44,782 bases of DNA from Bryobacterales bacterium (GTDB lineage: Bacteria > Acidobacteriota > Terriglobia > Bryobacterales > Bryobacteraceae). The stretch is taken from the NCBI GenBank assembly GCA_947467185.1, contig CANIHR010000007.1, positions 1 to 44,782 on the forward strand. Direction: 5' to 3'. Made by a program: the position numbers and the translations under genes. Under the pieces are notes generated by a model. The model saw nothing but the letters and a program-made list of their open reading frames with translations. It searched no databases and had not been told where the DNA came from. Positions 6,285 through 39,779 of the stretch are shown here, piece after piece. The first letter of the stretch is position 1. Every line of letters begins with the position of its first letter.

Positions 6285-6288
6285 CCCA

Positions 6289-8043: not shown

Positions 8044-8049
8044 TGATGC

Positions 8050-10238: not shown

Positions 10239-10242
10239 ACTC

Positions 10243-10701: not shown

Positions 10702-10704
10702 CTA

Positions 10705-10800
10705 TTACGGTTCCGGTCGACGCCCTTCCTGAAGCGCCAGGAATAGCAGCACCACTACAATCACACCGAGGATCAACCCCGCCCCAATAAACCACGCCAT
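10705..10800 (-). CDS. Possible 31-residue single-helix membrane peptide
   Basis: An ATG at 10800 opens a 31-codon frame: MAWFIGAGLILGVIVVVLLF, then LALQEGRRPEP and a stop. Residues 3-22 form an unbroken hydrophobic helix ending in a charged, arginine-containing tail, the layout of small bacterial membrane proteins. It fills the otherwise empty gap between the cupin stop and the glycosyltransferase gene. No strong ribosome binding site is seen upstream, so expression is uncertain. Random GC-rich sequence could give such a stretch, but the clean helix plus polar tail is better than expected by chance. Confidence 0.4.
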   Translation of the reverse strand: MAWFIGAGLILGVIVVVLLFLALQEGRRPEP

Positions 10801-10843
10801 TGGCTGAATTGTAAGACAATCGCCGTAAGGCTGGCATAAAAGT

Positions 10844-19760: not shown

Positions 19761-21029
19761 ATGCCCAAAAAGACCACGATAGGGATTGCCCACTCGGACG
19801 CCGACCTCGGCAAACCCGGCCAGTACACCCGTGAACAGCTGGATGCCGTCAAGGCTATGATCCGCGACATCGCCGACCAGACTATGGGCGGCATGCAGAA
19901 CATCGTGAAGAAGGGCGACAAGGTCTTAATCAAGATCAATACCGTCATTCCGATCGATCCCAATGAGGGGTTCACGACCGACCCCCGCATGCTGGAAGCC
20001 CTCATCGAACTGGTTCAGGAGCAGGAACCATCACGCATCCAGGTTGGCGAGCGCTGCGCCATGGGTGGCGATACGAAGAATGCGATGGACGTCTGCGGCA
20101 TCACCGCCGTGGCCGAGCGCACCGGCGTGGAACTCTGTCCCTTCGACAACGAGCCGTTCGACATGTTCAAAATCGACCGGCCGATCAGCTTCAACGAATT
20201 CCCCGTCCCGCGCGCCGTGCTGGAAGCCGACTGCTACATCGGCCTGCCGAAGATGAAGGTCCATCTTCACACCACCTTCACGGGAGCCCTGAAGCTCCAG
20301 TTCGGCAACCTGCCCGATTACGACTGGATGGTCCGCTGCCACAAGGACGATATCTATCAGAAAATCGTCAACCTGACGCTGGCCGCAAAACCCACCTGGT
20401 TCATCATGGATTCGCTCTACGCCTGCCAGGGTAATGGCCCGTTCAGTGCGTATCGCGACGATCTCATTAAAGATTTCAACACCATCTGCGGTGGCCCCGA
20501 CCCGGTTGCGGTCGATACCATCTGCGAAGCGCTGATGGACTGGGAAGATCCAGGCACCAACGTGCCCTCGACGATCCTGGGTGCGGCTGACGGCCTTGGC
20601 ACCAACGACATGGAAGAGATCGAACTCACCGGTGCCCCGCTCGATAAAGTGAAGCGCCGTTTCCGCCGCCAGAACAACAAGCTCCAGGGTTCGTTTAAGA
20701 ACGTCAACGTCGTCATGGGTTCCACCTGCGAGGCCGGTTGCAAGGCCATCCTCCGCATCCAGCTCGATCAGGCAAAGGCTGCGGGCACGCTCGACAATCT
20801 GAAACGCCCCGTGCACATTTTCACTGGCCTGCAGTTTGAAGAGATCAAACCCGTTGACGGCGATGTGATCCTCTTCGGCGACTGCGCCAAACCCCTGCTG
20901 GAGCGTTTCCCCAACGCGCAGTACTGGGGCAGCACCGAAGAGCACCCCAACTGTACGCCTATCTGGGCGAATATCCCGGCGCGTTCCATCGCCACGTACC
21001 TGCAGAAGTTGACGGAGATATCGAGTTAA
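19761..21029 (+). CDS. DUF362-domain protein
   Basis: A 422-residue protein with DUF362 features along its length: VLIKINTVIPIDPNEGFTTD near the N-terminus, ADCYIGLPKMKVHLHTTFTG in the middle, and GPDPVAVDTICEALMDWEDPG. The family is widespread and of unknown biochemical role, sometimes linked to iron-sulfur clusters. No ferredoxin-like Cys-x2-Cys-x2-Cys motif is seen here, although there are scattered cysteines (for example CEAGC). The ATG at 19761 was chosen over an upstream start because AGAGGAG lies ten bases before it. It is two bases upstream of the transketolase gene, so the pair is clearly co-transcribed, which suggests a shared sugar-related pathway. Confidence 0.85.
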   Translation: MPKKTTIGIAHSDADLGKPGQYTREQLDAVKAMIRDIADQTMGGMQNIVKKGDKVLIKINTVIPIDPNEGFTTDPRMLEALIELVQEQEPSRIQVGERCAMGGDTKNAMDVCGITAVAERTGVELCPFDNEPFDMFKIDRPISFNEFPVPRAVLEADCYIGLPKMKVHLHTTFTGALKLQFGNLPDYDWMVRCHKDDIYQKIVNLTLAAKPTWFIMDSLYACQGNGPFSAYRDDLIKDFNTICGGPDPVAVDTICEALMDWEDPGTNVPSTILGAADGLGTNDMEEIELTGAPLDKVKRRFRRQNNKLQGSFKNVNVVMGSTCEAGCKAILRIQLDQAKAAGTLDNLKRPVHIFTGLQFEEIKPVDGDVILFGDCAKPLLERFPNAQYWGSTEEHPNCTPIWANIPARSIATYLQKLTEISS

Positions 21030-21031
21030 GG

Positions 21032-23092
21032 ATGAGTTTCACAGCATCGCGCGCCACTCAGGTGCGCAAGGGTATTCTCAAGCTCCTGGAGATCCGGGAT
21101 TCGGACATCCGCATCCTCACTTTGGAGCAATGCCGCGACGCGGCGGATAAAGGTCTTCACGCGGGCGGCGCGTTTTCCGCAATTGTCCCGCTGGTTTCGC
21201 TGTACTACGGCGGTTTCCTCGACATTGACGTCGAGAACCCCACAAAGCGTGGCCAGGATATGTTCACGCTCAGCAAGGGCCATGCCGTGGCGGCAATGGC
21301 GTCGATCTATGCCGACCTCGGTTACTTCGACCGTGCGCTGCTGAAGGGTTCGCGTTCTTACGCCAGTATCCTCAACGGACACCCCGGTCCGGTGCTTCCC
21401 GGCGTTCACATCGCGACCGGCCCCATGGGTCAGGGCATTGCGGTGGCACAGGGTTTTGCCATCGCTGGCCAGACCAGTCCGCGTTTCGATTCCTACGCTC
21501 TCTGTGGCGACGGCGAACTGCAGGAGGGCCCCGTCTGGGAAGCCGTCATGTTCGCCGGCCAGAAGAAGCTGGATAACTTCTGCGTAATGGTGGACCAGAA
21601 CAATGGCCAGCTAGACATGGCCAACCGCATGGTCTTCCCGACGCCAAATCTGGAGGCCGTATTCGCGTCGTTCGACTGGAACGTGCACAGCTGTGACGCC
21701 ACCCAGTACAGCTCTGTTTTCGACGCCCTCGACCAGTTCCGTAACGGTGTTCGCAACGGCAAGCCGACCGCGATCATTTGCCATACCTCCAAGGGTCACG
21801 GCGCGTTTTCCGATTCCCTGAACAAGCACAAAGTCACCGGGTCTGACGCGGTTCTGAAGATCGAGCTGCAGTTGCAGGCCGACCAGCGTGCGGCCCGTGC
21901 GGCCGACTTTGACCGCTATGCCCGCAGCTGTGACAAGAGTGCGCACGAAGAACTGTTGAGCATCGCCGAGCACATGGGCCTCAGCGTGGCCGGCGGATTC
22001 TCCGCGAAGATTGGCCCGGTCCGGACGAAGCGCGCCGAGCCACGCAACAAGCAGATCTGCTACGACGCTTCGCTGCTGCCGAAGCTCGACCCGAAGAAGG
22101 AATACGCCGCGCAGGACATGGTCGTCGCGGCGATGAAGGTCTTCGCCCGCGACCCGCGTGTCATCTCGGTCGATTCCGATCTGGGCACCACCAGCGGGCT
22201 GGAAGCCGGCGTCGCGGCTGTGGACCAGAAGCGCGCCCTCAACGTCGGAGTCGCCGAAGCCAACATGATGAACCTCGGCGAGGCATTTGCTGCGCTGGGT
22301 TACAACGCGTGGGTCAGCACCTTCTGCCCCTTCTTCGACTGGAAGGTGATGCGACGTATCGCCGTCGGCCACCAGGAGCGGCTGGAAGCCATTGCAGACC
22401 CCAACAGCTGGCTCAGTGAAGGCCATGGCCTCGACCTGACGTACCTCGCCACCGCGCCCAATTTCGAAACCCGCACTAACGGTGCCACCCACATGGGTAA
22501 CGACGACATCACCATCTTCGATGGCATGGCCCATCTGAAGATCATCGATGTCTCCTGCCCCGAGCAGTTACTCGGCATCATGAAGTGGATCATGGCCGGC
22601 AACAAGGGCATCACTTACGTTCGTGTGATGCGCACGGGTTCGCCTGTCCTGTATCCCGCCGGTTACGAATTCGAATTCGGCAAGGCTTCCGTGGTCCGTG
22701 AATCGGCCACTGATACCGCTGTGATCGTCAGTTCGGGCCGCGGCGTTCACGAAGCTCTCGCTACGGCGGATCGCTGCGCAGCGAAAGGCATCGGCGTCAC
22801 CGTAATCGACATGCCTTCGGTTGATGAGGAGTGCCTCCTCAGTCTGTGCGATTCCGAGAAGGTTGTCGTCTTCGCCGAGCAGAACAACGGCTATCTTTGG
22901 AACAGCTTTATCCGAGCCGCGGCAAAGCATCGCAAAGCGTGGGCCGAACGCCTGCGCGTCCTGTCCATCAATACGCTCGATAAGAACGGTGACGAACAGT
23001 TCATCCACTCGGGAACTTACGAGGAACTGCTCGACGCCTTCCAGCTTTCCCCGGCGCACCTCGCGCAGATCATTCTCGATAAGGTCGGCTAA
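21032..23092 (+). CDS. Transketolase-like thiamine-diphosphate enzyme (both halves in one chain)
   Basis: A 686-residue ThDP enzyme. The N-terminal PP domain has the GDGELQEGPVWEA...DQNN metal/diphosphate motif, SKGHAVAAMASIYADLGY and NGHPGPVLPGVHIATGPMGQ. The Pyr domain (from about 345) has VISVDSDLGTTSGLEAG and NVGVAEANMMNLGEAFAALG with the catalytic glutamate, followed by the C-terminal transketolase domain (from about 540). It resembles the split archaeal-type transketolases joined in one chain more than the classic TktA, so the donor and acceptor sugars may differ from the pentose phosphate pathway. It sits between DUF362 and a cupin with gaps of two bases on each side. Confidence 0.9.
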   Translation: MSFTASRATQVRKGILKLLEIRDSDIRILTLEQCRDAADKGLHAGGAFSAIVPLVSLYYGGFLDIDVENPTKRGQDMFTLSKGHAVAAMASIYADLGYFDRALLKGSRSYASILNGHPGPVLPGVHIATGPMGQGIAVAQGFAIAGQTSPRFDSYALCGDGELQEGPVWEAVMFAGQKKLDNFCVMVDQNNGQLDMANRMVFPTPNLEAVFASFDWNVHSCDATQYSSVFDALDQFRNGVRNGKPTAIICHTSKGHGAFSDSLNKHKVTGSDAVLKIELQLQADQRAARAADFDRYARSCDKSAHEELLSIAEHMGLSVAGGFSAKIGPVRTKRAEPRNKQICYDASLLPKLDPKKEYAAQDMVVAAMKVFARDPRVISVDSDLGTTSGLEAGVAAVDQKRALNVGVAEANMMNLGEAFAALGYNAWVSTFCPFFDWKVMRRIAVGHQERLEAIADPNSWLSEGHGLDLTYLATAPNFETRTNGATHMGNDDITIFDGMAHLKIIDVSCPEQLLGIMKWIMAGNKGITYVRVMRTGSPVLYPAGYEFEFGKASVVRESATDTAVIVSSGRGVHEALATADRCAAKGIGVTVIDMPSVDEECLLSLCDSEKVVVFAEQNNGYLWNSFIRAAAKHRKAWAERLRVLSINTLDKNGDEQFIHSGTYEELLDAFQLSPAHLAQIILDKVG

Positions 23093-23094
23093 CT

Positions 23095-23475
23095 ATGCCC
23101 GCACTCCACGAATCTCAGACTGAAGAACTCGACCTGCCCGGACGCCACCTCCGCTGGGTCGCCAACCAGGAACTCATCGGCGCGAAACATTGCTCGTCCT
23201 GTGTGATCCGCGTGGAAGCGGGGCAGACCGTGAAGCCCGCCCACTCACACCCCAACGGCGAAGAGCTGATTTACATCATTAAGGGCACTGGTCGTGTCTG
23301 GATTGAAGGCGAGATTTCGCCGGTCAGCGAAGGCTCCATCGTGCTGTTCCCGCAGGGCCATGTCCACATGCTGCAGAACAACGGAACAGAAGAAATGAAA
23401 GTGGTCTGTTTCTTCTCGCCCGCCACGGATCTGGATAACTACAAGATGTTCCCCGACGTGGAGTTTCCGGCTTAA
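23095..23475 (+). CDS. Cupin-domain protein in the transketolase operon
   Basis: A 126-residue single-domain cupin without signal peptide. The first motif reads HSHPNGEELIYIIKGTGRVW, with the two histidines and the glutamate of the metal site. The second reads PQGHVHMLQNNG, with the last metal histidine. This full ligand set supports a bound metal, as in small sugar isomerases, dioxygenases or sugar-binding sensors. It starts two bases after the transketolase stop. A sugar-phosphate isomerase or a ligand-binding helper for the transketolase would fit the context, but neither is shown. Its stop shares TTAA with the stop of the convergent gene. Confidence 0.87.
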   Translation: MPALHESQTEELDLPGRHLRWVANQELIGAKHCSSCVIRVEAGQTVKPAHSHPNGEELIYIIKGTGRVWIEGEISPVSEGSIVLFPQGHVHMLQNNGTEEMKVVCFFSPATDLDNYKMFPDVEFPA

Positions 23476-24281
23476 TTCGCGGAAGGCCGCGAGACGCGTT
23501 CAATCACCAGGATTTCGACCTTTGACTTGCGGGGCTCCAGCTTCAGCCCCAGGCTCTGCTCGAAGACCGTAAAGACGCTCGGCTTGTCGGGTTCGGAGAT
23601 GGAACCCCAGCCTTCGGTCTCAATCTTATAGAGGCCGGTGATGCCCGTTTCATCGATTACAGACCGATCCATCCAGTTCTCCGCGAACAGCGCAAGGTCG
23701 CTCATATCCACAGCGGGGCCATGCAGACCGCGTCCCTGGCCACCATCCAGATGATGGCAGTAGAGCCCCGAATCCTGGGGCTGCGCGGGACAATCCTTCT
23801 CGGCAATACCCGCTTTTTCCAGCTTCGAACCGCGCTTCGCCGCCACCATCACGTAAGTTGGAATTTCGCGAACCTCAGGCCGGATCACCAGACCAAAGCG
23901 TTCCGCGAGTAACGCCCGCAGCATCACGCGGGTGCGGGCTTCCCGTTCTTTCGCCGAGATACCCGGCGTGAACATCCCCGGGGCGACGGCCTGAATATCG
24001 TACGTTTCCGATTGCACCCAGGCGGGACCACCGGTCAGTCGCGCGGATTGAAACGGCACGTTGTATGCGTTGGCGATAAGCCAGTAAAGCGGCATGTTTG
24101 CCACCGTCAACTGCCCGCTCGGAGAAACGGAAAAGCGAATAGGCCGGTGATTGCCGGCATCGGCAGTCGGCTTGATCGACGCGACTTCAAACGACACGCG
24201 GCCCATGGTTGTCTGAGAAGACGTTTGATCCTGCGCGAACAGGTTCAACGCAGTGAGCGCCAGGGCCGCCAGGGAACGCAT
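23472..24281 (-). CDS. Exported TIGR03435-family protein
   Basis: A 269-residue secreted protein of the TIGR03435 family, which is expanded in Solibacter and relatives and has no known function. The signal peptide covers about 1-16. Family landmarks are present: FEVASIKPTAD at the mature N-terminus, NMPLYWLIANAYN, LTGGPAWVQSETYDIQA, MLRALLAERFGLVIR, VIDETGITGLYKIETE, and the closing SLGLKLEPRKSKVEILVIE. Members often occur beside receptors and signalling genes. Its start overlaps the stop of the next TIGR03435 gene upstream (TGATG). It is the last gene of the five-gene operon and converges on the cupin gene with overlapping stops. Confidence 0.9.
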   Translation of the reverse strand: MRSLAALALTALNLFAQDQTSSQTTMGRVSFEVASIKPTADAGNHRPIRFSVSPSGQLTVANMPLYWLIANAYNVPFQSARLTGGPAWVQSETYDIQAVAPGMFTPGISAKEREARTRVMLRALLAERFGLVIRPEVREIPTYVMVAAKRGSKLEKAGIAEKDCPAQPQDSGLYCHHLDGGQGRGLHGPAVDMSDLALFAENWMDRSVIDETGITGLYKIETEGWGSISEPDKPSVFTVFEQSLGLKLEPRKSKVEILVIERVSRPSAN

Positions 24282-25258
24282 CAGTTTTCCGTCGGCATCT
24301 TTTCCAGATGATCGACGATGAGGATCTCAACCGGAGCTTTCTTCGGTTCCAGTTTCAGACCCATCTTCTGCACAGACTGAAACACCGAACCACCGGAAGG
24401 GTCGGAAGCCTCACCCGCCGCCGGAGCCCCCATACCCGGGCCGCCCATCATCATGCCCATACCCGCACCGGAGGCACGAGCCACAGTCATCATGTCGGCC
24501 ATCGTCAGATCCAGAGTCAGCTTGTAGTTGCCCTTCAGTTCCGTCTGGTCCATCACCGGCTTATCGACAAACCGCGTCAGCATCTCAGCGAACGCCGGCA
24601 TCGGGACTCTGGCCAGTTCCATGTGCATCATACCGTCGGAACCCATCTCCACCTTCGCCGCGCCAACTCCACCCGCGCCGGATGTGGTGACGACCGCGCC
24701 ACTGCCAGTCTGCGCCACACGCACATTGGCGCCACCCGCCGAGAACGTCTGCACGCCCTTTTGCGGTGCTGCCGCTTCGGCTTCCGCAGCTTTTGCCGGA
24801 TCAGGATCGGGATCAGCCTCCTTCAGCTTTGCGCCACCCTTACCCACCACCAGTGCATACATCGCCGTTTCCTTCGAGTCGCGGTGGAACTTCAATCCAA
24901 AGCGTTCCGCAAGCAGTGCCTGCAGCATCTCCGGAACCTGCTCCTTCGTTGCGCCCGCCGGGATCTTCGCAGAGATATCGAAGCGCTGCGCGCTCATCCA
25001 GTCCGGGCCCTGCAACTGGTGCTTCTTGATCCTGTACGCCATCATGATCAGGTCGCCCAGTCCGAGGTACCCGATATCCACGCGGGCGCCATCCATCTTC
25101 ATGCCGATGTTGGCCTTGCCGCCCATGATCTTCTGCGGCGTCAGTTGCTCCGCTGGCTTAATCGAAGCCACTTCAAATGCTACCGGCGCGGCGGCCTGAC
25201 CAAACAGTGATGAAGCGGCCAACAGGGCCAGCGTCCAGCGTGCGTTCATAAACTTCAT
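24281..25258 (-). CDS. Exported TIGR03435-family protein with Met/Gly-rich insert
   Basis: A 325-residue second full TIGR03435 protein in the operon. The landmarks are the signal peptide (about 1-22), FEVASIKPAEQ, YLGLGDLIMMAYRI, MSAQRFDISAKIPAG, MLQALLAERFGLKFH and the final GLKLEPKKAPVEILIVDHLE. Compared with its neighbour it carries an Ala/Gly stretch near 150-200 and a methionine-rich tract (MADMMTVARASG, then GMGMMMGGPGMG) before the C-terminal strand. Met-rich tracts can bind copper(I) or be flexible linkers; nothing more can be said. It follows the VWFA-like gene by eight bases. A second possible start (ATG at 25249) would shorten the signal peptide by three residues. Confidence 0.88.
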   Translation of the reverse strand: MKFMNARWTLALLAASSLFGQAAAPVAFEVASIKPAEQLTPQKIMGGKANIGMKMDGARVDIGYLGLGDLIMMAYRIKKHQLQGPDWMSAQRFDISAKIPAGATKEQVPEMLQALLAERFGLKFHRDSKETAMYALVVGKGGAKLKEADPDPDPAKAAEAEAAAPQKGVQTFSAGGANVRVAQTGSGAVVTTSGAGGVGAAKVEMGSDGMMHMELARVPMPAFAEMLTRFVDKPVMDQTELKGNYKLTLDLTMADMMTVARASGAGMGMMMGGPGMGAPAAGEASDPSGGSVFQSVQKMGLKLEPKKAPVEILIVDHLEKMPTEN

Positions 25259-25266
25259 CGTAACGC

Positions 25267-27375
25267 TTACTGCGTTAACACTATGGGAGCCTGCCAGAAC
25301 GCCGCCTTCTGACCAGCCGGGTTCAGCACCGTCACCTGGCAGTCGTACCGGCCCGGAGGCAACTGACTCAGCGACATGCTGAACTTCAGCGGCACCGTCT
25401 TCAGGCGATTCTGCAGACCTTCCGTCACCTGCAACGGCTGCGTCTCAAAGGCCTTCGTCTGCCCGCGATAGAACGTCACGAAGGCCACCAGAGGTTCAAA
25501 CGCCGTGGCGTTCGGCTGGTACGCCTGCAGATAGACGTACATATCTTTGCTTCGCGAGAACACATGCGTCACGTTGGCCAGCAGCTTCTGCCCGTTCTGA
25601 ATCAGCGGGTTCGCGATCGGAGTCTTGCCGTTGTCCTTGCCCGCCGTAAACAACGCGTCGCGCATATCCACCAGCTGACTGCTCAGCACTACCGAACTGA
25701 TCGGAATCCGCTTGTCTTCCTTGTTCAGATTCGGCACCAGAAACTTCGTCATGTAAGTCCCGATACGCCCGGTTTCGTCATCGCGCGCCAGAATTTTTAT
25801 CGTGTAATTCCCCGGCAGCAGAGTGAACCCTGTGTCGTACTGGATGGGCCGCTTCACCAGTTCGGCAGCGGTTTCGCCGGAGAGCTTAATATCCACTTTG
25901 TCGCGGACGTTGCTCACCGTGGTCCCGAACTCGTCCTTCACTTCACCGATGAAATCGATCAGCGTACGTTCCCCGCCCGACTTCTTCACCAGCGCGAGTT
26001 CACTTCCCGGCACCTTAACCGTCACCGGCACAAAGTACTCTGCGCGATTCATCTGGAAGTAATCCACTTCCATGGCCAGCGTCAGTTCAGTGATCGGGTC
26101 GCCCAGCATCAGGGCATCTTCCAGCTGCCGTTCCTTATCCGCCGCCGTGAACTTACTGAACGTCTTACCCGCATAGAAACCCTGCCGGTAATCCAGCTTT
26201 GCGTCCGGCACATTCACCGTGATCTTCACGCGCCGGAACTTACCATCCAGATTCGTCTGATTCGTGTAATACCCCAGAATGTAGTAACTGGAAATCGCCT
26301 GCTGCGCGTTCACGATACCCGCCGCCAGATCGTTGTTATCCAGCAGCGCCTTGCCGCCGGTATCCGCCGCGAGCGAATACATCGTGTCCTGCGACCGCTG
26401 CAGCGCGCCCGTCATCGCCAGCGCCGACTGTCCCGAGTACATGCCCTGACCACCAGGCGAACCCACCGTCGCATCACCCAGCGGCGCCGACGCCACCAGA
26501 CCACGCGCATCCACCGGGAAGAACGACACGTTGGCACGAATCGCCGCATTCACCGTCGCCTGCATCTGCGCTTGGTTGCTCGATCCGCTCAACCGCAGAC
26601 CGCTCGAAAAATACACCAGCGACTTCTTCTCGGTCAGCGTCCCCAGCATCTTCACCGCAGTCTGCAGCGCAGCCAGCTGACGATCCGTATTAAACAGATT
26701 GAACTCCGAATCGTTCTGCCCGAACGCCGTGCCCGTGTCTGCTGTCGTGTCCACTTCGTCAAAGCCCTGACCCTCGCCAACGATCAGCTTTTCAATCGAG
26801 GCTTCCAGCACCATCTTGTCGCCGGTGAAGTCATTCAGCACCTTCACCGCCGCGCCCGTGTACTCCAGAATCGTCGCTTCGTCCGACGCCGTCATCTGCG
26901 TCCGAATAAACTTACGCGCCGAACTCAGCGCGCGAATCTGATCCGGCACGGGCATCGCCGCCATATCGAAATACAGCGCCAGCAAACGATGGTCGCGATG
27001 CCGCAGGTCACCAGGTGTCTCCGGCGTAATCTGCGTCACCGGCACCGAAAGCGTTGTCGGATTCACGGGCTTCGCCGCATCAGCAACAGCCGTCGCGGGA
27101 GCCGCCGGAGCCTTGCTGTCCTCAAATTTCTGGAACTCGGCAAACTGAATCGTCTGCACAATGTTGTTCTCAGTCAGCGTGAAGTCCTTCGGTGTCAGCC
27201 CCTCGATGGGCTTACCGTTCTTGTCCTTCACGAACACCGTTTCAATCACCAGTTGCGTATTGCTCTTGAAGGTGACCACACCTTCCTCAGCGGGAGCGGC
27301 GGGAGGTTTCTGCGCCTGCTGCGCGGTCATCGTCAGCGTAATGAGCAGCAGACCTGCTGTAATGCGTTTCAACAT
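25267..27375 (-). CDS. Exported VWFA-related protein (TIGR03436 type)
   Basis: A 702-residue secreted protein. The signal peptide (about 1-18) is followed by a short Ig-like segment (VFVKDKNGKPIEGLTPKDF, then TLTENNIVQTIQF) and a von Willebrand A-type domain (about 125-370) including LVYFSSGLRLSG and FFPVDARGLVASAP. These are hallmarks of the Acidobacteria-rich TIGR03436 family. The metal-ion site usually written DxSxS reads DMAAM here, so metal-dependent adhesion is doubtful. The C-terminal 330 residues form several beta-sandwich-like modules. It starts two bases after the receptor stop, with GAGG as ribosome site. A role in protein binding at the cell surface or periplasm is plausible. Confidence 0.88.
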   Translation of the reverse strand: MLKRITAGLLLITLTMTAQQAQKPPAAPAEEGVVTFKSNTQLVIETVFVKDKNGKPIEGLTPKDFTLTENNIVQTIQFAEFQKFEDSKAPAAPATAVADAAKPVNPTTLSVPVTQITPETPGDLRHRDHRLLALYFDMAAMPVPDQIRALSSARKFIRTQMTASDEATILEYTGAAVKVLNDFTGDKMVLEASIEKLIVGEGQGFDEVDTTADTGTAFGQNDSEFNLFNTDRQLAALQTAVKMLGTLTEKKSLVYFSSGLRLSGSSNQAQMQATVNAAIRANVSFFPVDARGLVASAPLGDATVGSPGGQGMYSGQSALAMTGALQRSQDTMYSLAADTGGKALLDNNDLAAGIVNAQQAISSYYILGYYTNQTNLDGKFRRVKITVNVPDAKLDYRQGFYAGKTFSKFTAADKERQLEDALMLGDPITELTLAMEVDYFQMNRAEYFVPVTVKVPGSELALVKKSGGERTLIDFIGEVKDEFGTTVSNVRDKVDIKLSGETAAELVKRPIQYDTGFTLLPGNYTIKILARDDETGRIGTYMTKFLVPNLNKEDKRIPISSVVLSSQLVDMRDALFTAGKDNGKTPIANPLIQNGQKLLANVTHVFSRSKDMYVYLQAYQPNATAFEPLVAFVTFYRGQTKAFETQPLQVTEGLQNRLKTVPLKFSMSLSQLPPGRYDCQVTVLNPAGQKAAFWQAPIVLTQ

Positions 27376-27377
27376 CG

Positions 27378-30300
27378 TTAGAACCTCACCCGCATACTCA
27401 ACTGCGTGGACCGCATCGGATTCGCTACCATCGGCAGCCCAAACTGTGCGTTGCCAACCGTCGTGTTCCAGCTGGGGAACCGAACGTTATTCAAAGGATT
27501 CGTCGCATCCAGGCGAACATCCATGCTCAACCGGTCTTTCAACCGGAACGTCCGCGACATCGACGCATTCAGCGTGAACTGCGTCGGCCCGGTAATCGTA
27601 TTCCGCCCCGCGTTGCCCCACTGCCCCAGCACCGGAGTCGTATACGCCGCCGGATTCAGATAGAGACCCGAGGGCGCATCGTAGAGCGAAGCGCCTGTGT
27701 AATCGGGACGAAGCGTGCCGGTGATACCCGTGCCACGCACCGCCGTCGGGAACACCGGAGAAAGCGGAGTCCCCGTGCCAAGATTCAGCTGCGACGTAAT
27801 CGTCCAGTCCTTCACGGCCGTGCCCCGCCAGCCATCCAGCAACGTTCCGCCGCGAACTCCAACGCCCGTGCTGTACTGCGACTGCAACGTCAGGACATGC
27901 CGCTGGTCGAAGTTCGACAAACCTCTTTCTCCGCGCAGATTCAGCCAGTCCTGCGCAATCATCTGGCCACCACCGCCGCGACCGCCCAGAATGCCATTAT
28001 CAATGGCTTTGGAGAACGTGTAGTTCGCCGTCGCCGTGAAGCCGTGGTGCAGCCGCCGGCGCAATTGCAACTGCAGCGCCTCGCGCGTCGAGTTGCCGTT
28101 TGAACTCAGATAGACAAACCCAGCCGGACATGCGGGACACGGATTCGTCGCGCCCGTCGGATAGGTATTCGGAATGAACGACTGCGGTGCCCGCGTTCCT
28201 TTAATTCCAAGGTACGTCGCGGTCATAATCAGCGACGCCGGCAGATCGCGCTGCACCGCCAATGACCACGTATGCGTGTAGCCCAGACGGAAGTCCGGAT
28301 CAATCGCGAAGGTGTTCGCAGTCGTGTTCGGAGACTGCAGGAAACCATTCGCGAGGCTCAGCGGATTCGCCGCCGTATTCTGCACGCTCAGGCTCTTCGA
28401 GAGCGGCGACTGCTGCGCCATCTGCACCGCGATCGACTGATACACCGACGTGTTGTACGTGACACCATACCCCGCGCGAACCACCATCGAATCACCCGCA
28501 ATTGGACGCCACGCCAAACCAATGCGCGGCTGGAATGCGCTCTTCACCGGCTTCACCAGCGAATCCGCGAACGTCTTCCCGGTGAGCGGACCCACCGGCT
28601 TATTCGCTACCACCGGAGCCGCCGCCTTAAAGCCCGGCGTAATATCCAGATTCACCAGACGCCCGTAGTTTTCTGTGATCGGCGAACTGTACTCCCAGCG
28701 TGCGCCAATGTTCAAAGTCAGGCTCGGATTCACGCGCCAGTCGTCCGTCAGATAGGCGTCATACACGGAAGCGCGGAAGTACTTATCCGCATTACCGAAC
28801 GCGATGGAACTCGTGTCCGGCACACCTAACAGGAAACCGCCGAAATCCGACTTAGCCGCCGCCCCGGTAAAGCTAAAGCTGCCGCGCGCATCCTGCTGCC
28901 CCAGATAGTTAAACTGCTGACGCCGGTAGTCGCCACCGTAAGTGAAGTTATGCGGCGAGTGATTCCAATAGATATTCGCCGATGCCGATGACGTCTGAAA
29001 GCGATTTGCAGAATACTGCGCGTCGTACAGTCCCGCATAGCCACTCGAAAAATTCAGATTCGGCGGACCCCAGTTCACGGCCTCCTGGTTATTTCCCACA
29101 ATCCCCGCTTCGGCCGACACGTTGCGCAACCGCGCAAACTGCGGCGTTGTCGTGGTCGACATCCGGTTGAAGTTCAGCTTCCCCGTCAGGAACATCCGCT
29201 GACTGAACCGGTGCGTCCAGTTCGCCGTCACATCAATGCCCGACGATTCCGTACCATCCACAAAGTTGAACAGATTCGGATTCGCGCCCCGTGAATTCTG
29301 ATACCCAAACGTCCCGAACACCTGGTCCGTCCGCCCGATGGATTTCGAAAGCCGCGACTGCAGATTATCCTGATCGCTCGTGCCCCTCAGTGCGGTCTGG
29401 TAGTTATACCGCGAAGAACCGGTGAAGTTTGGCAGCGGATAGAAAGCCGCCAGAGTCTTCGCCGCCTGGCTGATCCGGCTCGTCGGAATCACATTACCCG
29501 GGAACGCATTCCCCGTCGTCGGATCCAGCACCGTGGTACTCATCACGCCCGTGCGTTCCAGCGCGGTCGGCATCAGCGCCGGTTGCACACTCGCCGTCCG
29601 GTTCCGCGCCATCTGATAGGACACAAAGAAATTCGGCGCGTTGTTGGCATTAAACAGATGCGGAATCCGCAGCGGACCGCCCACCTGCGCCGAAGCATTG
29701 ATCCGGTTGTACGCCGGCTTCGCCGTATCCTGCCCCGTCAAACTGAACGACCGCGCATCCAGCGCCGAGTTCCCGAAGATCGCGCCCACATTGCCCGTGT
29801 ACAGTGACCCCGCCCCGCGCCGGTTGTTCCCAAACGCGCCCGACATCCCGAAGTTCGAAGCCGCCGCATTGTTCGCCGACCCGTTGATATTGAAAGCATC
29901 CGCCGCACTCTGCGTTTCGGCGGGCTGGTCGGACTTTGGCTCCTCTGCGGGAGTCGCCGCGGGAGCAGCCCCAGCCGCGCTGGCATTTACCTGAGCTCGC
30001 TTAAAACCACCGGTCTCCGGATTCGCGTTCTGAGCGGGAGCCTTCCCCTTGCCCTTCTTCGAAGTCGTCACCGGAGCCGTCGGGGCCTTCATCGCAGCCG
30101 GTGCCTCAGCTGCCACAGGCGCGGGAGCAGGCGCAGGACTAATCGCCTTAATCTCATCCACCGGCATCAGCTTCAGGTCAATGAGCGGAGCTTCCGCATT
30201 CGCCCCCACCGTGACATCCTGCTTGGCGCTGACAAAGCACAGCATGTCCACCTGCAGGTTCCAGACGCCATCGGCCAGGTCCGGAAACGAGTAGGTGCCG

Positions 30301-30473
30301 TTCATGCCCGTCACGGTACCCACCTTCTTGTCACCCTGCGACGCCGTCACCGTCGCGCCGGGCAGCGGAAGACCCGCGAACCGCACCGTGGCATGGTGTT
30401 CCGAAGCGAAAGCGGGCATAATCAGCGTGGCCGCCAGCAAAATCCGGGTCACTGCCCGACATATACGATTCAT
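27378..30473 (-). CDS. Oar-like TonB-dependent outer-membrane receptor with N-terminal carboxypeptidase-regulatory domain
   Basis: A 1031-residue outer-membrane protein. After a signal peptide (about 1-23), residues 25-100 form a carboxypeptidase-regulatory-like domain (ATVTASQGDKKVGTVTGMNG). Then comes a low-complexity Ala/Pro/Lys linker (about 115-205), a short conserved block (DAFNINGSANN, ALDARSFSLTGQ), GGPLRIPHLF, and a long beta-barrel ending in RVRF with the terminal phenylalanine. A normal plug domain is hard to find; the linker takes its place. The ATG at 30473 was chosen because the signal peptide begins there; extension to 30644 would run through the upstream gene. It is two bases from its neighbours on both sides. 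Import of large or polymeric substrates is typical of relatives, but the ligand is unknown. Confidence 0.87.
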   Translation of the reverse strand: MNRICRAVTRILLAATLIMPAFASEHHATVRFAGLPLPGATVTASQGDKKVGTVTGMNGTYSFPDLADGVWNLQVDMLCFVSAKQDVTVGANAEAPLIDLKLMPVDEIKAISPAPAPAPVAAEAPAAMKAPTAPVTTSKKGKGKAPAQNANPETGGFKRAQVNASAAGAAPAATPAEEPKSDQPAETQSAADAFNINGSANNAAASNFGMSGAFGNNRRGAGSLYTGNVGAIFGNSALDARSFSLTGQDTAKPAYNRINASAQVGGPLRIPHLFNANNAPNFFVSYQMARNRTASVQPALMPTALERTGVMSTTVLDPTTGNAFPGNVIPTSRISQAAKTLAAFYPLPNFTGSSRYNYQTALRGTSDQDNLQSRLSKSIGRTDQVFGTFGYQNSRGANPNLFNFVDGTESSGIDVTANWTHRFSQRMFLTGKLNFNRMSTTTTPQFARLRNVSAEAGIVGNNQEAVNWGPPNLNFSSGYAGLYDAQYSANRFQTSSASANIYWNHSPHNFTYGGDYRRQQFNYLGQQDARGSFSFTGAAAKSDFGGFLLGVPDTSSIAFGNADKYFRASVYDAYLTDDWRVNPSLTLNIGARWEYSSPITENYGRLVNLDITPGFKAAAPVVANKPVGPLTGKTFADSLVKPVKSAFQPRIGLAWRPIAGDSMVVRAGYGVTYNTSVYQSIAVQMAQQSPLSKSLSVQNTAANPLSLANGFLQSPNTTANTFAIDPDFRLGYTHTWSLAVQRDLPASLIMTATYLGIKGTRAPQSFIPNTYPTGATNPCPACPAGFVYLSSNGNSTREALQLQLRRRLHHGFTATANYTFSKAIDNGILGGRGGGGQMIAQDWLNLRGERGLSNFDQRHVLTLQSQYSTGVGVRGGTLLDGWRGTAVKDWTITSQLNLGTGTPLSPVFPTAVRGTGITGTLRPDYTGASLYDAPSGLYLNPAAYTTPVLGQWGNAGRNTITGPTQFTLNASMSRTFRLKDRLSMDVRLDATNPLNNVRFPSWNTTVGNAQFGLPMVANPMRSTQLSMRVRF

Positions 30474-30475
30474 CA

Positions 30476-30922
30476 CTACTGATTCTCCCCAGGCTTCGCA
30501 GCCCGATCTTTGCTGACCGCCCGGCGCGACACCAGATCCAGTCCAAGTTCTTCCCGCACCGCGCTGAAGATAGACCTGTTCTCCACCGCCGCGCCCAAAT
30601 CCATGCGTTCTTTCGCCGTCTTCGGACCCGTATCCGGCGTCCACGTGAGCGTTACGTCGTACTCGCCAGGCAGCCCGGTTTCGTCCACCACCGTGCGCCC
30701 CACAATCCCCGAAAGTACCCGCGCCAGTTCCGGCATCGTCATGCGACGCGCCACCAGCCTGCCCTCACTCCGGGAAACCGATTTCTTCGATTCAGGCGGG
30801 GAATCGAGAATTTCCGTGCCACTCCGGCCCACCACCAGCGCATAAATCGAAGCCGGTGTCTGGGCGTACGCAGCCGCAACAAGACACACCACGGCTGCGG
30901 ACCTCGGGATCATCACGTACAT
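30476..30922 (-). CDS. Truncated exported TIGR03435-like protein
   Basis: A 148-residue protein with a signal peptide (about 1-21) joined directly to the C-terminal half of a TIGR03435 domain. The N-terminal landmark FEVASIKP and the middle RALLAERFGL block are missing. The remaining part starts at SIYALVVGRSG (equivalent to PTYVMVAAKRG in the full protein), followed by MTMPELARVLSGIVGRTVVDE, GLPGEYDVTL and SAVREELGLDL. The usual closing VEVLVIDH strand is also lost. An intact frame and retained signal suggest a functional short form, though decay after an internal deletion is possible. First gene of the operon, two bases before the receptor; a start at 30913 is an alternative. Confidence 0.72.
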   Translation of the reverse strand: MYVMIPRSAAVVCLVAAAYAQTPASIYALVVGRSGTEILDSPPESKKSVSRSEGRLVARRMTMPELARVLSGIVGRTVVDETGLPGEYDVTLTWTPDTGPKTAKERMDLGAAVENRSIFSAVREELGLDLVSRRAVSKDRAAKPGENQ

Positions 30923-30961
30923 CTATGACGTTATTCCGAGATCATCGTTGGGAAAGTTCCA

Positions 30962-32242
30962 TTAAAAATGCATTTTCAGGAACTTAACGAAGACATCCCA
31001 GTCGGACGGCACCATTCCATGTCCCCCGTCATGCATGATGTAGCCCATCGTTCCCAGAATCGCCTGACCCGCGGCGGGCACTTCCGTCACGCCCAAACCA
31101 GGCTTCCCGAATAACTGATATACCGGTTCCGCAGCCTTCGCCGCCAGAAACTCACCCTTCGGGTCCGACCACTTGTCCGTATTGCCCGTCTGCAGCAGCA
31201 GCGGACGCGGCGCAATCAGCGCCACCAGCAGATTCGCATCCACCGGACTCTCTTCCGGATGCGCACCCCACTTCGCATAGTTGCCCGCGAACTGGTACGG
31301 ATAGCGCGTCGGCTCCACCAGGTGCGCAATCGTCTCGCCGTAGTTCCGACGGCTGATCGCTGCCCCACCTTCTCCCGAGCAACTGGCAATCACGGCGGCG
31401 AAGCGAGTGTCCGCGGCGCCGGCCCACATCACCGTCTTTCCCAGACGCGAAACGCCCGTGATCGCGACCTTCTTCGCGTCAACCGCTTTATCGGTTTCCA
31501 GATAGTCCATCGCGCGGCTCATGCCCCACGCCCAAGCCGCAATCGAACCCCAGTCACCCGGCGCCGGTTCCGTCTGCCCCGCCTTCAGATACTGCGCCCG
31601 AATGCCGTTCGGAACGCCGCCCAGGAAGTCCGGATCCACGTCACCGTAGTAGAACGTGGCCACGCCAATCCCTTCGCTGACAAACTTCATCGGATTCAGT
31701 CGGCCAATGCCGCGGCCACCCGCTGCCGAAACTTTCTTCTTATCCCGACCCCAGATTTCGCCGACCTTCACGCCGGGATCATCGGGCACCGTCAGTGAGT
31801 TGGCCGAGAATGCGACGTTCAGCAGCGTCGGGACCGGCTTTGCCGTACCCACCGGAAGATACATCAGCAGATCGATCTTCGGCCCCGACTTGTCCTTCGT
31901 CAGATAAATCGAGACCTGTCGCCGGACAGCCTTGCCCTCAAACGCCGCCCCGTCTTTTTCGAACACCTCGAACGTCATGTCCTTCGGACGCCCCGGAGCC
32001 TTGCCGTACTGGCTTTCTTCAAACAGGCGAACGATCTCCGGACGCCGCTTTTCTGTCCACGTCTTCGCGTCCTTCACCGGCTTCCCGTTCGCCAGAACAA
32101 GCGCCTCCGGCAGCTTCGGACTCCCCGCCTTCGCCTCGGTATAGTTCACCGGAATCCCGGCGACCTTGTCATCCGGATAATCCGCAATCTGCGCCAACGC
32201 GGACGCGGCAAGCACGAGAGAACCGACAGTAAGCTTCAGCAC
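30962..32242 (-). CDS. Exported CE15-type glucuronoyl esterase-like hydrolase
   Basis: A 426-residue secreted alpha/beta hydrolase. The signal peptide is about 1-18. The carbohydrate esterase 15 signature is clear: nucleophile Ser265 in GVSRLGK, SCSGEGGAAISRRNYGE, the APRPLLLQTGNTDKWSDPKGEF block, and the catalytic His408 in HDGGHGM. CE15 enzymes cut the ester between glucuronic acid of xylan and lignin alcohols, so this points to plant cell-wall breakdown. One usual motif, D-Q-H before the APRP block, reads D-A-N here. The GTG start has no ribosome site but a perfect TATAAT six bases upstream. It lies 39 bases before the receptor operon on the same strand. Confidence 0.86.
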   Translation of the reverse strand: MLKLTVGSLVLAASALAQIADYPDDKVAGIPVNYTEAKAGSPKLPEALVLANGKPVKDAKTWTEKRRPEIVRLFEESQYGKAPGRPKDMTFEVFEKDGAAFEGKAVRRQVSIYLTKDKSGPKIDLLMYLPVGTAKPVPTLLNVAFSANSLTVPDDPGVKVGEIWGRDKKKVSAAGGRGIGRLNPMKFVSEGIGVATFYYGDVDPDFLGGVPNGIRAQYLKAGQTEPAPGDWGSIAAWAWGMSRAMDYLETDKAVDAKKVAITGVSRLGKTVMWAGAADTRFAAVIASCSGEGGAAISRRNYGETIAHLVEPTRYPYQFAGNYAKWGAHPEESPVDANLLVALIAPRPLLLQTGNTDKWSDPKGEFLAAKAAEPVYQLFGKPGLGVTEVPAAGQAILGTMGYIMHDGGHGMVPSDWDVFVKFLKMHF

Positions 32243-32248
32243 AGTGTG

Positions 32249-32254
32249 ATTATA
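32249..32254 (-). promoter_or_regulatory. Perfect -10 box TATAAT six bases before the CE15 GTG start
   Basis: On the minus strand TATAAT is followed by CACACT and then the GTG at 32242, so the expected transcription start falls on the first base of the start codon. A TTGTAA (32270-32275, overlapping the kbl stop) is a weak -35 candidate at 15 bp. With no ribosome site, a leaderless message is the simplest reading. Confidence 0.5.
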
Positions 32255-32269
32255 TTTCCAAAGCGCGTC

Positions 32270-33454
32270 TTACAACCCCATCGCGGCCTTAACCTTCGCA
32301 AAACACCCCACCGCAAACTCCAGATCCGCCCGGCTGTGCGCGGCGGAAACCTGCGTCCGAATCCGCGCCTTGCCCTGCGGCACCACCGGATACGAGAACG
32401 CCACCACATACACGCCCTCGGCCAGCATCAACTCCGCCATCTTCGCCGCCACGTGCGCATCGCCCAGCATCACCGGAGTAATCGGATGCTCACCCGGCAG
32501 AATATTAAACCCCAGCGCCACCATGCTCTCCCGGAAAAACCGCGTATTCTCCCGCAGCTTATCCCGCAACTCCGACCCCGACGCCAGCAGTTCCAGAACC
32601 TTCAGCGAAGCGCCCGCAATCGCCGGTGCCAGCGAGTTCGAAAACAGGTACGGCCGCGACCTCTGCCGCAGCAGTTCAATGATCTCCCGCTTACCGCTCG
32701 TATACCCGCCGCTCGCCCCACCCAGCGCCTTGCCCAGAGTCCCGGTAATCACGTCGATCCGGTCCATCACGCCATGGTGTTCATGCGTCCCGCGACCATT
32801 CGCGCCCGTGAAACCCACCGCGTGCGAATCGTCCACCATCACCATCGCGCCATGCTTGTCCGCCAGATCACAAATCGCCGGAAGATTGGCCAGATACCCG
32901 TCCATGGAGAACACACCATCGGTCGCGATCATCTTCAGCCGCGCCCCCGAAGCCTCCTGCAGCTTCGCCTCCAGATCCGCCATATCATTGTTGCGATACC
33001 GGAAGCGCGACGCCTTGCACAGCCGCACACCGTCGATGATGCTGGCATGGTTCAGTTCATCGGAAATGATCGCGTCCTCAGCCTCCAGCACGGTCTCAAA
33101 CAACCCGCCGTTGGCATCGAAGCACGAGGAATACAGAATCGTGTCCTCGGTCCCCAGAAAGCTGCTGATGCGCGCTTCCAGCTCTTTGTGAATCGCCTGC
33201 GTGCCGCAGATGAACCGTACCGATGCGAGGCCATAGCCCCACGTATCCAGTGCCGCATGAGCCGCCGCAATCACCTCGGGACTATCCGCCAACCCCAGGT
33301 AATTATTCGCGCACATGTTCAGCACGCCCCGTAACTTCGGCACATCCACATGTGCATTCTGGGGACTCAGCAGCACGCGCTCGGACTTATAAAGGCCAGC
33401 TTCCCGAATCGCGGCAAGGCGACCGGTCAGGTTCTCACGGGCATGGGTAAACAT
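32270..33454 (-). CDS. kbl: Glycine C-acetyltransferase (2-amino-3-ketobutyrate CoA ligase)
   Basis: A 394-residue PLP enzyme of the alpha-oxoamine synthase family. It cleaves 2-amino-3-oxobutyrate with CoA to glycine and acetyl-CoA, the second step of threonine breakdown through threonine dehydrogenase. The PLP lysine is K242 in [13 protein letters not shown], the cofactor aspartate is D208 in [11 protein letters not shown], and the N-terminus carries [15 protein letters not shown]. Length (about 397 in E. coli Kbl) and the [16 protein letters not shown] block favour Kbl over the related BioF or HemA. No tdh gene is beside it. It follows the DUF3592 gene by 16 bases on the same strand. Confidence 0.94.
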
Positions 33455-35286: not shown

Positions 35287-36254
35287 TGGGGATTGTATTG
35301 GCGCTCAAAACCGTTGCGGGTGTTGGTGATCCTGAACGAGCCGTCTGTCGCGGCTGAGATGTGCAGCCACATGAACCCATCCGTCGGCTCCAGGTTTGCG
35401 ATGAAATCGTCCGGCGGATTGGCGTCTTTACCGGCGTTCAGAGAGGTGTGCACCTGCCAGATATCTTTCAGACCAGGGGACGCTTTCAGTACCGGCCACG
35501 TCGGCGCATCGGCGCCTTTACGAGCGCCATTCGCCTGAATCATCACGGGAGCCTGAATGGCAGCCAGCAGTTCCGGCGCGATGCCCTTGAACTGCCCGTG
35601 GACATTGACGTTGTAAAGGCCAACGCGACCAATCACATTGACAGGACACACCAGATCGTAGCTGTTGTGCGCTTCCAGATCCGCCAGATCCAGCATGCGA
35701 AACTTGCCCAGTCGAATCAGCAATCCCAACGACTGATCGTCTTCAAAATCCGACGCGCGAGGAGCTACCTGCTTCGCCGTGTCGCAGGCCGGATTGCGCG
35801 AACCCTTGCCCTTTTTCGACTGGCCCGCCGAAGTCAGAACCTCAACGTCGAGGCCCTTGATCGGCAGCTTGTCGCCGACCTTGAGCGAGGTATGCGGCAG
35901 CGTGTTCCGCGCCGCTGAGTATGCCGCGAACCGAGGGTTCTTCGGGGCATCGCCATGGTCGTAAACATGCCCCACCGGGAACGCCGCCAGCAGCTTGGCC
36001 ACATCGCCGACATGGTCGATGTCATAGTGCGAAATCACCAGATGATCGATGCGCTTCAGGCCTGCCGCTTTGGCCGCCTCCACGATGCGTTCCGTCGAAT
36101 TCGGCCAGCCCACATCGAACAGCATCGACTCACCCGCAGGCGAGACGAACAGGACGGACTTTCCGCCCTCCACATCGATGACGTAAATCTCGAGCTTTTT
36201 CGCGGCCGGCAGCGACACCGCCAGCAGCAGCCAGAGACAGACCAACCGGATCAC
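35283..36254 (-). CDS. Exported MBL-fold metallo-hydrolase (ComEC C-terminal-like)
   Basis: A 323-residue protein with a signal peptide (about 1-18) and a metallo-beta-lactamase fold. The metal motif is SHYDIDHVGD (H-x-D-x-D-H), preceded by the typical ESMLFDVGWPN strand. The overall pattern resembles stand-alone relatives of the ComEC/Rec2 C-terminal domain. The region about 150-185 carries a Lys/Gly/Ser-rich loop (QSKKGKGSRNPACD). Likely a periplasmic phosphodiesterase or other hydrolase; the substrate is not readable. Its GTG start overlaps the stop of the trpEG gene (GTGA), an unexpected coupling with a biosynthetic gene. Confidence 0.83.
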   Translation of the reverse strand: MIRLVCLWLLLAVSLPAAKKLEIYVIDVEGGKSVLFVSPAGESMLFDVGWPNSTERIVEAAKAAGLKRIDHLVISHYDIDHVGDVAKLLAAFPVGHVYDHGDAPKNPRFAAYSAARNTLPHTSLKVGDKLPIKGLDVEVLTSAGQSKKGKGSRNPACDTAKQVAPRASDFEDDQSLGLLIRLGKFRMLDLADLEAHNSYDLVCPVNVIGRVGLYNVNVHGQFKGIAPELLAAIQAPVMIQANGARKGADAPTWPVLKASPGLKDIWQVHTSLNAGKDANPPDDFIANLEPTDGFMWLHISAATDGSFRITNTRNGFERQYNPH

Positions 36255-38401: not shown

Positions 38402-38444
38402 TATCGCAAGAGGCCCGGAATCGGATATGCTCGGAGATTCGTCT

Positions 38445-39779
38445 ATGACTCCACTGTTCCTGCTGTTCGGTGCAATCGGCCTCCTGCTGGTGCTGATTAT
38501 TTGGGTGAAGCTGAACCCGTTCCTGTCGCTGGTGATCACGTCGTTCCTCCTAGGGATCGCAAATGGTCTGGCGCCCCAGGCGGTTTTGAACGCCATTATT
38601 AAGGGCGCGGGCGACACGTTCGGGACCATCGCCATCGTGATTGTGTGCGGTGCGGCGATCGGGAAACTGATCGAGGAAAGCGGAGCGGCACTGGCGGTCA
38701 GTAAGACGTTCATCCGGTGGTTTGGCATTCCCCGGATTCAGCTGGCGATGGTGCTGACTGGCTTTCTGGTCGGGCTGCCAATGTTCTACAACGCCGGTTT
38801 TCTTGTGCTGACGCCCCTGGTTTATGCGCTTTCGGCCTCCACCGGCCTGCCGCTGCTCTACCTCGGCGTGCCGCTCTGCGCGGCGCTTTCGGTGACCCAC
38901 GGCTTTGTCCCGCCGCACCCCGGACCGACGGCTGTCGCGGCGGTCTTCCATGCCGACCTCAACATGACGCTGCTCTACGGCGTGATTCTGGCGATTCCGG
39001 CCACGATCCTTGGTGGTCCGGTGCTCTCGCGGTTCTATAAGGGCTGGAACAACCAGCCTCCTCCGGAACTCTATACCCACAAGGAACTGGCCGACAGCGA
39101 GCTACCGTCGTTCAGCGTGAGCCTGACGACGATCCTGATCCCGGTGGTTCTGATGATGTTCGGCGCGGTTGTAGCGATGACGACGGACGCGAAGAGCGGG
39201 ATCGCGCAGATGGCGAAGTTCCTGAGCGACGCCAACGTGGCGTTGTTCATCGGGCTGCTGGTCGCCATCTGGACGCTGGGTCTGGGGCGCGGGCGCAACA
39301 TGGATTCGGTGATGAAGGCCGTGGGCACGGCGGCTTCCGGCGTGGCGATGCTGCTGCTGGTGATCGCGGCGGGCGGGTCGTTCAAACAGGTGCTTCTCGA
39401 CGGCGGGGTGGCGGACGTGATCAAACGCGTGATGAGCGAGAGCTCGGTGTCGCCCATCGTGCTGGCGTGGGGTATGGCGGCGGTAATGCGGTTCGCGCTG
39501 GGTTCGGCCACGGTGGCCGGGATTACGGCGGCGGGCATCATGTTGCCGCTGGTGCCGGGTTCGGGTGTGCGGCCGGAGCTGATGGTGATCGCGGTCTCGA
39601 CCGGCAGCCTGATGTTCGCCCACTTCAGCGACACCGGTTTCTGGATGTTCAAGGAATACTACAACGCAACGATCAAGCAGTCGTTCCAGGTGTGGACCGC
39701 AATGGAATGCACGGTTGGCACGGTTGGCTTGATTGGTACGCTGATTCTGCACTGGATTCTGGGAGGTGTTGCGAAATGA
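38445..39779 (+). CDS. GntP-family permease (gluconate:H+ symporter type)
   Basis: A 444-residue inner-membrane transporter with about 12 hydrophobic helices. GntP-family landmarks: FLLFGAIGLLLVLIIWVKLN at the N-terminus, VGLPMFYNAGFLVLTPLVYA, SVTHGFVPPHPGPTAVA with the conserved PPHPGP loop, MRFALGSATVAGITAAGIM, and HFSDTGFWMFKEY. These carriers import gluconate or related sugar acids with protons. The ATG at 38445 was chosen because GGAG lies eight bases before it; an earlier ATG at 38427 has no ribosome site. The creatininase gene starts within its stop codon. An uptake role for a sugar acid processed by the two downstream enzymes is an inference. Confidence 0.93.
   Translation: MTPLFLLFGAIGLLLVLIIWVKLNPFLSLVITSFLLGIANGLAPQAVLNAIIKGAGDTFGTIAIVIVCGAAIGKLIEESGAALAVSKTFIRWFGIPRIQLAMVLTGFLVGLPMFYNAGFLVLTPLVYALSASTGLPLLYLGVPLCAALSVTHGFVPPHPGPTAVAAVFHADLNMTLLYGVILAIPATILGGPVLSRFYKGWNNQPPPELYTHKELADSELPSFSVSLTTILIPVVLMMFGAVVAMTTDAKSGIAQMAKFLSDANVALFIGLLVAIWTLGLGRGRNMDSVMKAVGTAASGVAMLLLVIAAGGSFKQVLLDGGVADVIKRVMSESSVSPIVLAWGMAAVMRFALGSATVAGITAAGIMLPLVPGSGVRPELMVIAVSTGSLMFAHFSDTGFWMFKEYYNATIKQSFQVWTAMECTVGTVGLIGTLILHWILGGVAK

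Follow-up and report, generated by a model that had tools for sequence, protein, structure and literature searches.

How is an outer-membrane barrel kept closed when the plug that defines its kind is missing? The question is raised by a 44,782-nucleotide stretch of DNA from a Bryobacterales bacterium of the Acidobacteriota (assembly GCA_947467185.1, contig CANIHR010000007.1, positions 1 to 44,782 of the forward strand; hereafter the window), in which a gene for an Oar-type outer-membrane barrel of 1031 amino acids, here called O (27378-30473, minus strand, ATG at 30473), stands directly before a gene for a long, VWA-like TIGR03436 protein of 702 amino acids, here called V (P0003; 25267-27375, minus strand). 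TonB-dependent transporters contain by definition both a barrel and a plug, according to the excerpts of PMC6434023 on which we draw. O has no such plug, and other Oars have theirs at the place that is taken by a linker in O. This absence is the most unusual feature of the locus and was missing from an earlier sequence-only reading of the window. The conserved core of the locus, carried by soil bacteria of the Acidobacteriota, is two genes, O then V.

The ordinary Oars of the same genome consist of CarboxypepD_reg, plug and barrel, and O of CarboxypepD_reg and OMP_b-brl_4 (522 bits for the latter). A profile built from the plug region of these ordinary Oars was applied at E < 1e-3 to the N-termini of 65 O proteins, 63 of them from loci L091-L170 (score above 850, length 880-1110 amino acids) and the other two from the window and from contig 33 of the same genome. 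It matched none of the 65 (best E value 0.03) and all 14 of 14 held-out Oars; because its 28 training Oars overlap the 27 plug-bearing Oars of the neighbour count given below, these 14 are the independent check of the profile. At distant loci it matched none of 19 O genes at the same threshold. Pfam Plug, found in 16 of the 28 ordinary Oars, does not figure in the 25 families (of 33) that were listed for the 65 O proteins.

The plug region of ordinary Oars measures 128-148 residues. In O proteins, 26-122 residues (median 69), on average 38% alanine plus proline, lead from the N-terminal domain to an NGS motif that is nearly invariant, and some 30 further residues lead from there to the barrel. 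The AlphaFold model of O (mean predicted local distance difference test score, pLDDT, 80.9; predicted template modelling score, pTM, 0.69) has a folded, CarboxypepD_reg-like N-terminal domain at residues 24-99 (30177-30404, minus strand) and barrel strands from residue 226 onwards (226-1031; 27381-29798, minus strand). No folded domain lies over the Ala/Pro-rich linker at residues 113-222 (29808-30137, minus strand), where pLDDT falls below 50 at 113-130 and 132-222. VIA-align placed the model on FhuA, BtuB and FecA chains (Z 20-20.8, 419-491 residues, root mean square deviation 2.8-3.9), and a trimmed model aligned to the target barrels only (for example from residue 135 in BtuB and from 159 in FhuA). 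Certain rows of the untrimmed model, which begin at disordered residues 168-183 and extend into the target plug regions, were given no weight. The TonB box was a weak test: one pattern occurs in 0 of 65 O proteins and in only 9 of 28 ordinary Oars, and a less strict pattern is present in 24 of these O proteins and in 20 of these Oars.

The linker might itself be the closure, in that O would be self-gated by its Ala/Pro-rich stretch together with the CarboxypepD domain, leaving V as a periplasmic or surface accessory for substrate capture or anchoring. The constancy of the NGS motif at the end of the linker region and the presence of CarboxypepD_reg in 65 of 65 O proteins (E up to 1) fit this idea, but two O proteins have linkers of just 26 and 37 residues, the linker is modelled with low confidence, and a second plugless type described below has a VWA-like partner without any CarboxypepD match. 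We regard self-gating as improbable.

The pairing of O with V extends far beyond this genome. A V match at E <= 1e-60 was present in 114 of 150 genomes searched in the order and in 31 of 199 at the level of the phylum, the own genome being counted in both. Our main set, clade 1, combines 40 loci among the best V matches with the best 80 of 325 confirmed GTDB loci, which span Bryobacterales, Granulicella, Acidobacterium and one record labelled Rhizobacter; it is not a random sample, and comprises 97 loci after addition of the window and removal of duplicates. O immediately precedes V, with the two co-oriented, at 95 of the 96 readable non-redundant loci. At 20 of 20 loci taken from a second V clade (44-50% identity to the window V) a co-oriented Oar-type gene is again found upstream of V, and in all 19 readable loci of a set of 20 from the phylum-level genomes an Oar-type gene immediately precedes V. 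The second long V of the own genome, on contig 33, shows the O-V arrangement of the window. Since the pairing recurs in clade 1, in the second clade, at distant loci and on contig 33, we take O and V to be the core. The record labelled Rhizobacter (Proteobacteria; L135, JADGRJ010000205.1) carries an operon of a DUF3738 gene, O and V, and is probably a mislabelled or contaminated metagenome bin.

Plug-bearing Oars do not share this neighbour. The own genome has 82 OMP_b-brl_4 match places, some of them pieces of one gene, and we examined the best 30 of these (one being contig 33) together with the window, contigs 2 and 94 and others; lower-ranked match places, many of them pieces, are omitted from the neighbour count. 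Downstream of 27 plug-bearing Oars, each with at least 300 readable bases (three have only 405-625), a VWA gene recognised by the TIGR03436-seed profile was found in no case. One Oar without a plug match (L228) was left out, its start being cut off, and at L204, L207, L276 and small pieces the downstream sequence is unreadable. Three complete plugless Oars were found in the genome, in the window and on contigs 33 and 94, and each has a VWA-like gene next to it.

The contig-94 gene (4937-8721; L272, L278) represents the second plugless type. It encodes a 952-amino-acid barrel with a Pro-rich N-terminus, has neither a plug nor a CarboxypepD match, and is overlapped by one base by a directly downstream VWA-like gene of 308 amino acids, which we read from L278. 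The type is conserved in the order, and the barrel was matched in 57 of 100 genomes, the own genome counted. Among its best 30 loci none has a plug, and all 29 readable ones have the same VWA-like gene directly downstream, the TIGR03436-seed profile matching 17 of these partners at E < 0.01. A tree of 56 barrels places the plugless barrels paired with TIGR03436 together and those of the contig-94 type in a group apart, and this quick tree requires two changes of plug state.

These counts bear on the plainest explanation, that of an ordinary nutrient-uptake operon in an Oar-rich lineage, where the co-location with V and with DUF3738 genes would reflect no more than family sizes. The 82 OMP_b-brl_4, 38 TIGR03435 and 21 TIGR03436 match places in the genome, some of them pieces, speak for it, but the pairing is specific (a recognised VWA gene beside 0 of 27 plug-bearing Oars), persists at distant loci, and involves a barrel without the plug that an uptake receptor needs. 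We consider this explanation very unlikely.

V belongs to TIGR03436, an acidobacterial VWFA family, well above its curated cut-off (241.1 bits against 81.25), and is distinguished from other members by its long form (about 700 amino acids), its tie to O and a change in its metal ion-dependent adhesion site (MIDAS). The MIDAS motif is DxSxS. The VWA-like part of V (26170-27273, minus strand) has DMAAM in its place, and among 96 paired V proteins (97 rows less one gapped row) the fifth position is serine in none and methionine in 93, and the third is serine or threonine in 85. DxSxS is kept in 5 of 7 other aligned TIGR03436 places of the own genome. Judged from this alignment, V has lost the last MIDAS serine. 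In 79 of 79 pairs set against the window, V also shows higher conservation than the barrel of O. V is not evidently a lipoprotein, as no more than 4 of 97 V proteins contain a lipobox-like motif, and a V profile search of the sequences of solved structures returned nothing credible.

It is conceivable that V is cargo, in which case O would be a dedicated secretion pore, in an Oar-derived two-partner arrangement, and V would act at or beyond the cell surface. The one-to-one pairing, with a VWA gene directly downstream of the barrel, and the scarcity of lipobox-like motifs agree with this, as does the need for Myxococcus Oar in secretion of the protease PopC, as given in excerpts of PMC6434023. 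On the other hand, exposed cargo would unusually be the more conserved partner, an open pore would still be in need of a gate, and the two partner types are far apart in size (702 and 308 amino acids). This, too, we hold to be unlikely.

We tentatively favour, at a little short of an even chance, the reading that V closes or gates the open O barrel in trans. O would be a TonB-receptor-derived outer-membrane pore that has lost its in-line plug, and the exported, VWA-like V would supply the missing gate; it would lodge within or against the mouth of the barrel, sealing the membrane much as LptE does in LptD, and would move on binding of a substrate or an envelope partner. Both the gate role and any direction of transport through O are what we infer. 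LptD-LptE and SusC-SusD each pair a barrel with a plug or lid that has its own gene, LptE plugging LptD. V is of another family and lacks a lipobox-like motif in 93 of 97 proteins. The closest known relative of O is the Oar subclass of TonB-dependent transporters, which O resembles, as far as the excerpts on M. xanthus Oar go (PMC6434023), in its CarboxypepD_reg domain and its TonB-receptor-type barrel; it differs in having no plug, in its constant downstream VWA partner and in that the TonB box was not found, weak as that test is. An engineered plugless Oar of Myxococcus was less stable and present at a lower level (PMC6434023, in part), and this lower stability fits the need for a partner.

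Several observations weigh against this reading. The same engineered plugless Oar gave no PopC secretion (PMC6434023, in part), although a partner that both stabilises and closes the barrel would explain the difference between natural and engineered plugless Oars. The lumen of O might be filled by the linker or the CarboxypepD domain. In one clade-1 locus (L163) a BlaI-like gene directly precedes V and O is absent. In the second clade a plug is present in one (L245) of the 18 O genes that could be judged (L231 and L242, cut by contig ends, were left out); a gap of 136 bases separates this plug-bearing Oar from V, and it does not group with the other O genes on the tree. The Oar of contig 2, one of the 27 plug-bearing ones, has a plug match of only 24 bits and no VWA neighbour within 470 readable bases. 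The contig-94 partner lies below the curated cut-offs of both VWA_2 (E 3.6e-4) and TIGR03436 (E 0.0089), and 12 of the 29 partners of this type go unmatched by the TIGR03436-seed profile at E < 0.01. No BlaI or M56 gene adjoins the window operon. Finally, the approximately unbiased test does not reject one common origin of the plugless barrels (p-AU 0.2), so that convergent plug loss, despite the two changes on the quick tree, is not shown.

At L163 itself, the V frame lies in two pieces behind the BlaI-like gene (9498-12022), reflecting a frameshift or another arrangement.

The third family of the locus, TIGR03435/DUF3738, has three members in the window above its cut-off of 40: P0005 (30476-30922, 148 amino acids, 83 bits), P0002 (24281-25258, 325 amino acids) and P0001 (23472-24281, 269 amino acids), all on the minus strand, the last two scoring 269.4 and 169.5 bits. 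They are set apart from other members by a place upstream of O in one clade, and in many relatives by fusion, as the C-terminal part, to BlaR1-type M56 proteases encoded beside BlaI-type repressors. In clade 1, 67 of 76 readable loci have a DUF3738 gene whose end is no more than 1.2 kb from O on the upstream side. None of 18 readable loci of the second clade and none of 17 of the third has such a gene before O; the only distant loci with one, L251 and L252, are near the window clade (59 and 56% identity to the window V). DUF3738 genes are a clade-1 addition to O-V. Of 107 loci with sufficient sequence, counted with their duplicates, 7 resemble the window in having a DUF3738 gene within 1.5 kb downstream of V, and one is also present at L031/L091, where the contig is too short for that count. 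We tried DUF3738 proteins as a plug acting in trans and rejected them: clades 2 and 3 are plugless yet without them, so they are not the general gate.

The genes around O in relatives suggest another role. Where at least 3 kb upstream of O is readable, a BlaI-like gene occurs in 25 of 65 loci and an M56-type gene in 22 of 65, and at L053 and L133 a Pfam Penicillinase_R gene stands beside a gene that joins Peptidase_M56 and DUF3738 in one protein. In the own genome Peptidase_M56 and Penicillinase_R were each matched three times, and these matches form pairs on contigs 368, 110 and 54; the contig-368 Peptidase_M56 protein also has DUF3738. The excerpts of PMC7593790 used here describe BlaR1 as a protease of the M56 type with an extracellular sensor, through which BlaI comes to be cleaved; the relatives share the side-by-side Peptidase_M56 and Penicillinase_R genes of that system, DUF3738 replacing the penicillin-binding sensor at L053 and L133, and differ from the window operon, where the pair is absent. 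Given this layout and the M56 fusions, the best reading of DUF3738 is that of a substitute sensor ectodomain. In one clade, DUF3738 proteins would then add a layer of sensing: among relatives, a ligand on the M56-DUF3738 protein may lead to destruction of BlaI and switch the operon on, and soluble copies may bind the same ligand.

The wider proposal that joins these parts seems to us rather doubtful as a whole: a new two-component class of outer-membrane pore in Acidobacteriota, derived from Oar, which would have lost the plug and probably the TonB box, would use a VWA protein with a broken MIDAS as a gate in trans, would have arisen at least twice, and in one branch would be under the control of BlaR1-like receptors that sense the transported substance by means of a DUF3738 ectodomain.

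Structural comparison did little to define DUF3738. The AlphaFold model of P0001, a confident one (pLDDT 88.4, pTM 0.82), had no clear match in the PDB (best Foldseek E value 0.36) and a weak best VIA-align result (Z 3.5, 76 residues, root mean square deviation 4.2); by title 13 of 17 rows are beta-lactamases or penicillin-binding proteins and two are glutaminases, a result that is suggestive beside BlaR1 but far too weak to use. Glutaminases share the fold of beta-lactamases and penicillin-binding proteins. A DUF3738 profile search of the sequences of solved structures also gave nothing credible. The model has two units of similar strand-helix order, and we considered tandem STN-like domains; this was dropped, as a half-against-half profile comparison did no better than column shuffles, and STN (PF07660) is not among the 19 families listed for 60 DUF3738 members at E up to 10. 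At L088 (7087-8613; contig 186 of the own genome), a 508-amino-acid frame holds two DUF3738 domains in tandem. The C-terminal end reads P[ST][EADQ]N in 108 of 135 DUF3738 proteins that reach the profile end (non-redundant loci among L031-L170), M56 fusions and soluble copies alike, and is an unexplained constraint.

The sequence-only reading had described five exported genes on one strand, three of TIGR03435, an Oar-like receptor and a VWFA-like protein, with gaps of 2, 2, 8 and -1 bases and a glucuronoyl esterase gene 39 bases upstream. These coordinates and family names agree with our analysis, and signal-peptide-like N-termini were seen by eye in five of five products. Its own refuting condition, the lack of a conserved neighbourhood in related genomes, does not hold: at the loci compared across the phylum the receptor-VWA order recurs, which is more than chance, and its dedicated envelope system stands as a conserved envelope operon. 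A complex of all five products does not follow from the comparison, in which the constant unit is O and V only and DUF3738 is absent from clades 2 and 3. The short P0005, which it had called truncated, looks like a decaying deletion derivative. In L091 this position holds a full-length DUF3738 gene, but in both the window and L093 the N-terminal half of the gene is missing and its C-terminal end is degraded. The ratio of nonsynonymous to synonymous substitution rates (dN/dS) between the window and L093 is 0.24 for this gene, 0.07 for V and 0.12 for O, so that P0005 is probably a deletion relic under weaker constraint.

The esterase-like gene (GCE_fung; 30962-32242, minus strand), possibly co-transcribed, is outside the conserved unit; besides the window, its conservation amounts to a 69-amino-acid match in one relative (L031/L091). 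We therefore reject it as part of the unit, and a plant polymer as the substrate is left without support, since the esterase link is not conserved. A consensus scan of 21000-33000 found no sigma-70-like promoter site (shuffles average 3.5). A TATAAT hexamer lies at 32249-32254 on the minus strand, 6 bases ahead of the GTG start of the esterase gene (region 32243-32254), and a leaderless transcript could run from there into the five genes. Elsewhere in the window, 36251-38728 encodes Chorismate_bind and GATase in one protein, an anthranilate-synthase-like fusion, with SPFH and metallo-beta-lactamase-fold genes nearby.

Neither TIGR03435, DUF3738 nor TIGR03436 is named in the open-access literature that we searched, which excludes subscription papers and preprints; nor do VWA domain, TonB-dependent and plug domain, or BlaR1, M56 and Acidobacteria, occur there together. 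Plugless, TonB-dependent and plug domain co-occur in one paper, on pyocin import through FpvAI (PMC10994204), and a study of duplication in Solibacter lists TonB-receptor and VWA paralogs, its excerpts being silent on any pairing (PMC3174227).

Conserved plugless members of a receptor class defined by barrel plus plug, each with one kind of partner, raise the question of how such a pore is closed. Natural plugless barrels offer material to separate the gate from the barrel, and the arrangement provides TIGR03435/DUF3738, the long TIGR03436 proteins and OMP_b-brl_4, all of them large and uncharacterised families, with a role that can be tested.

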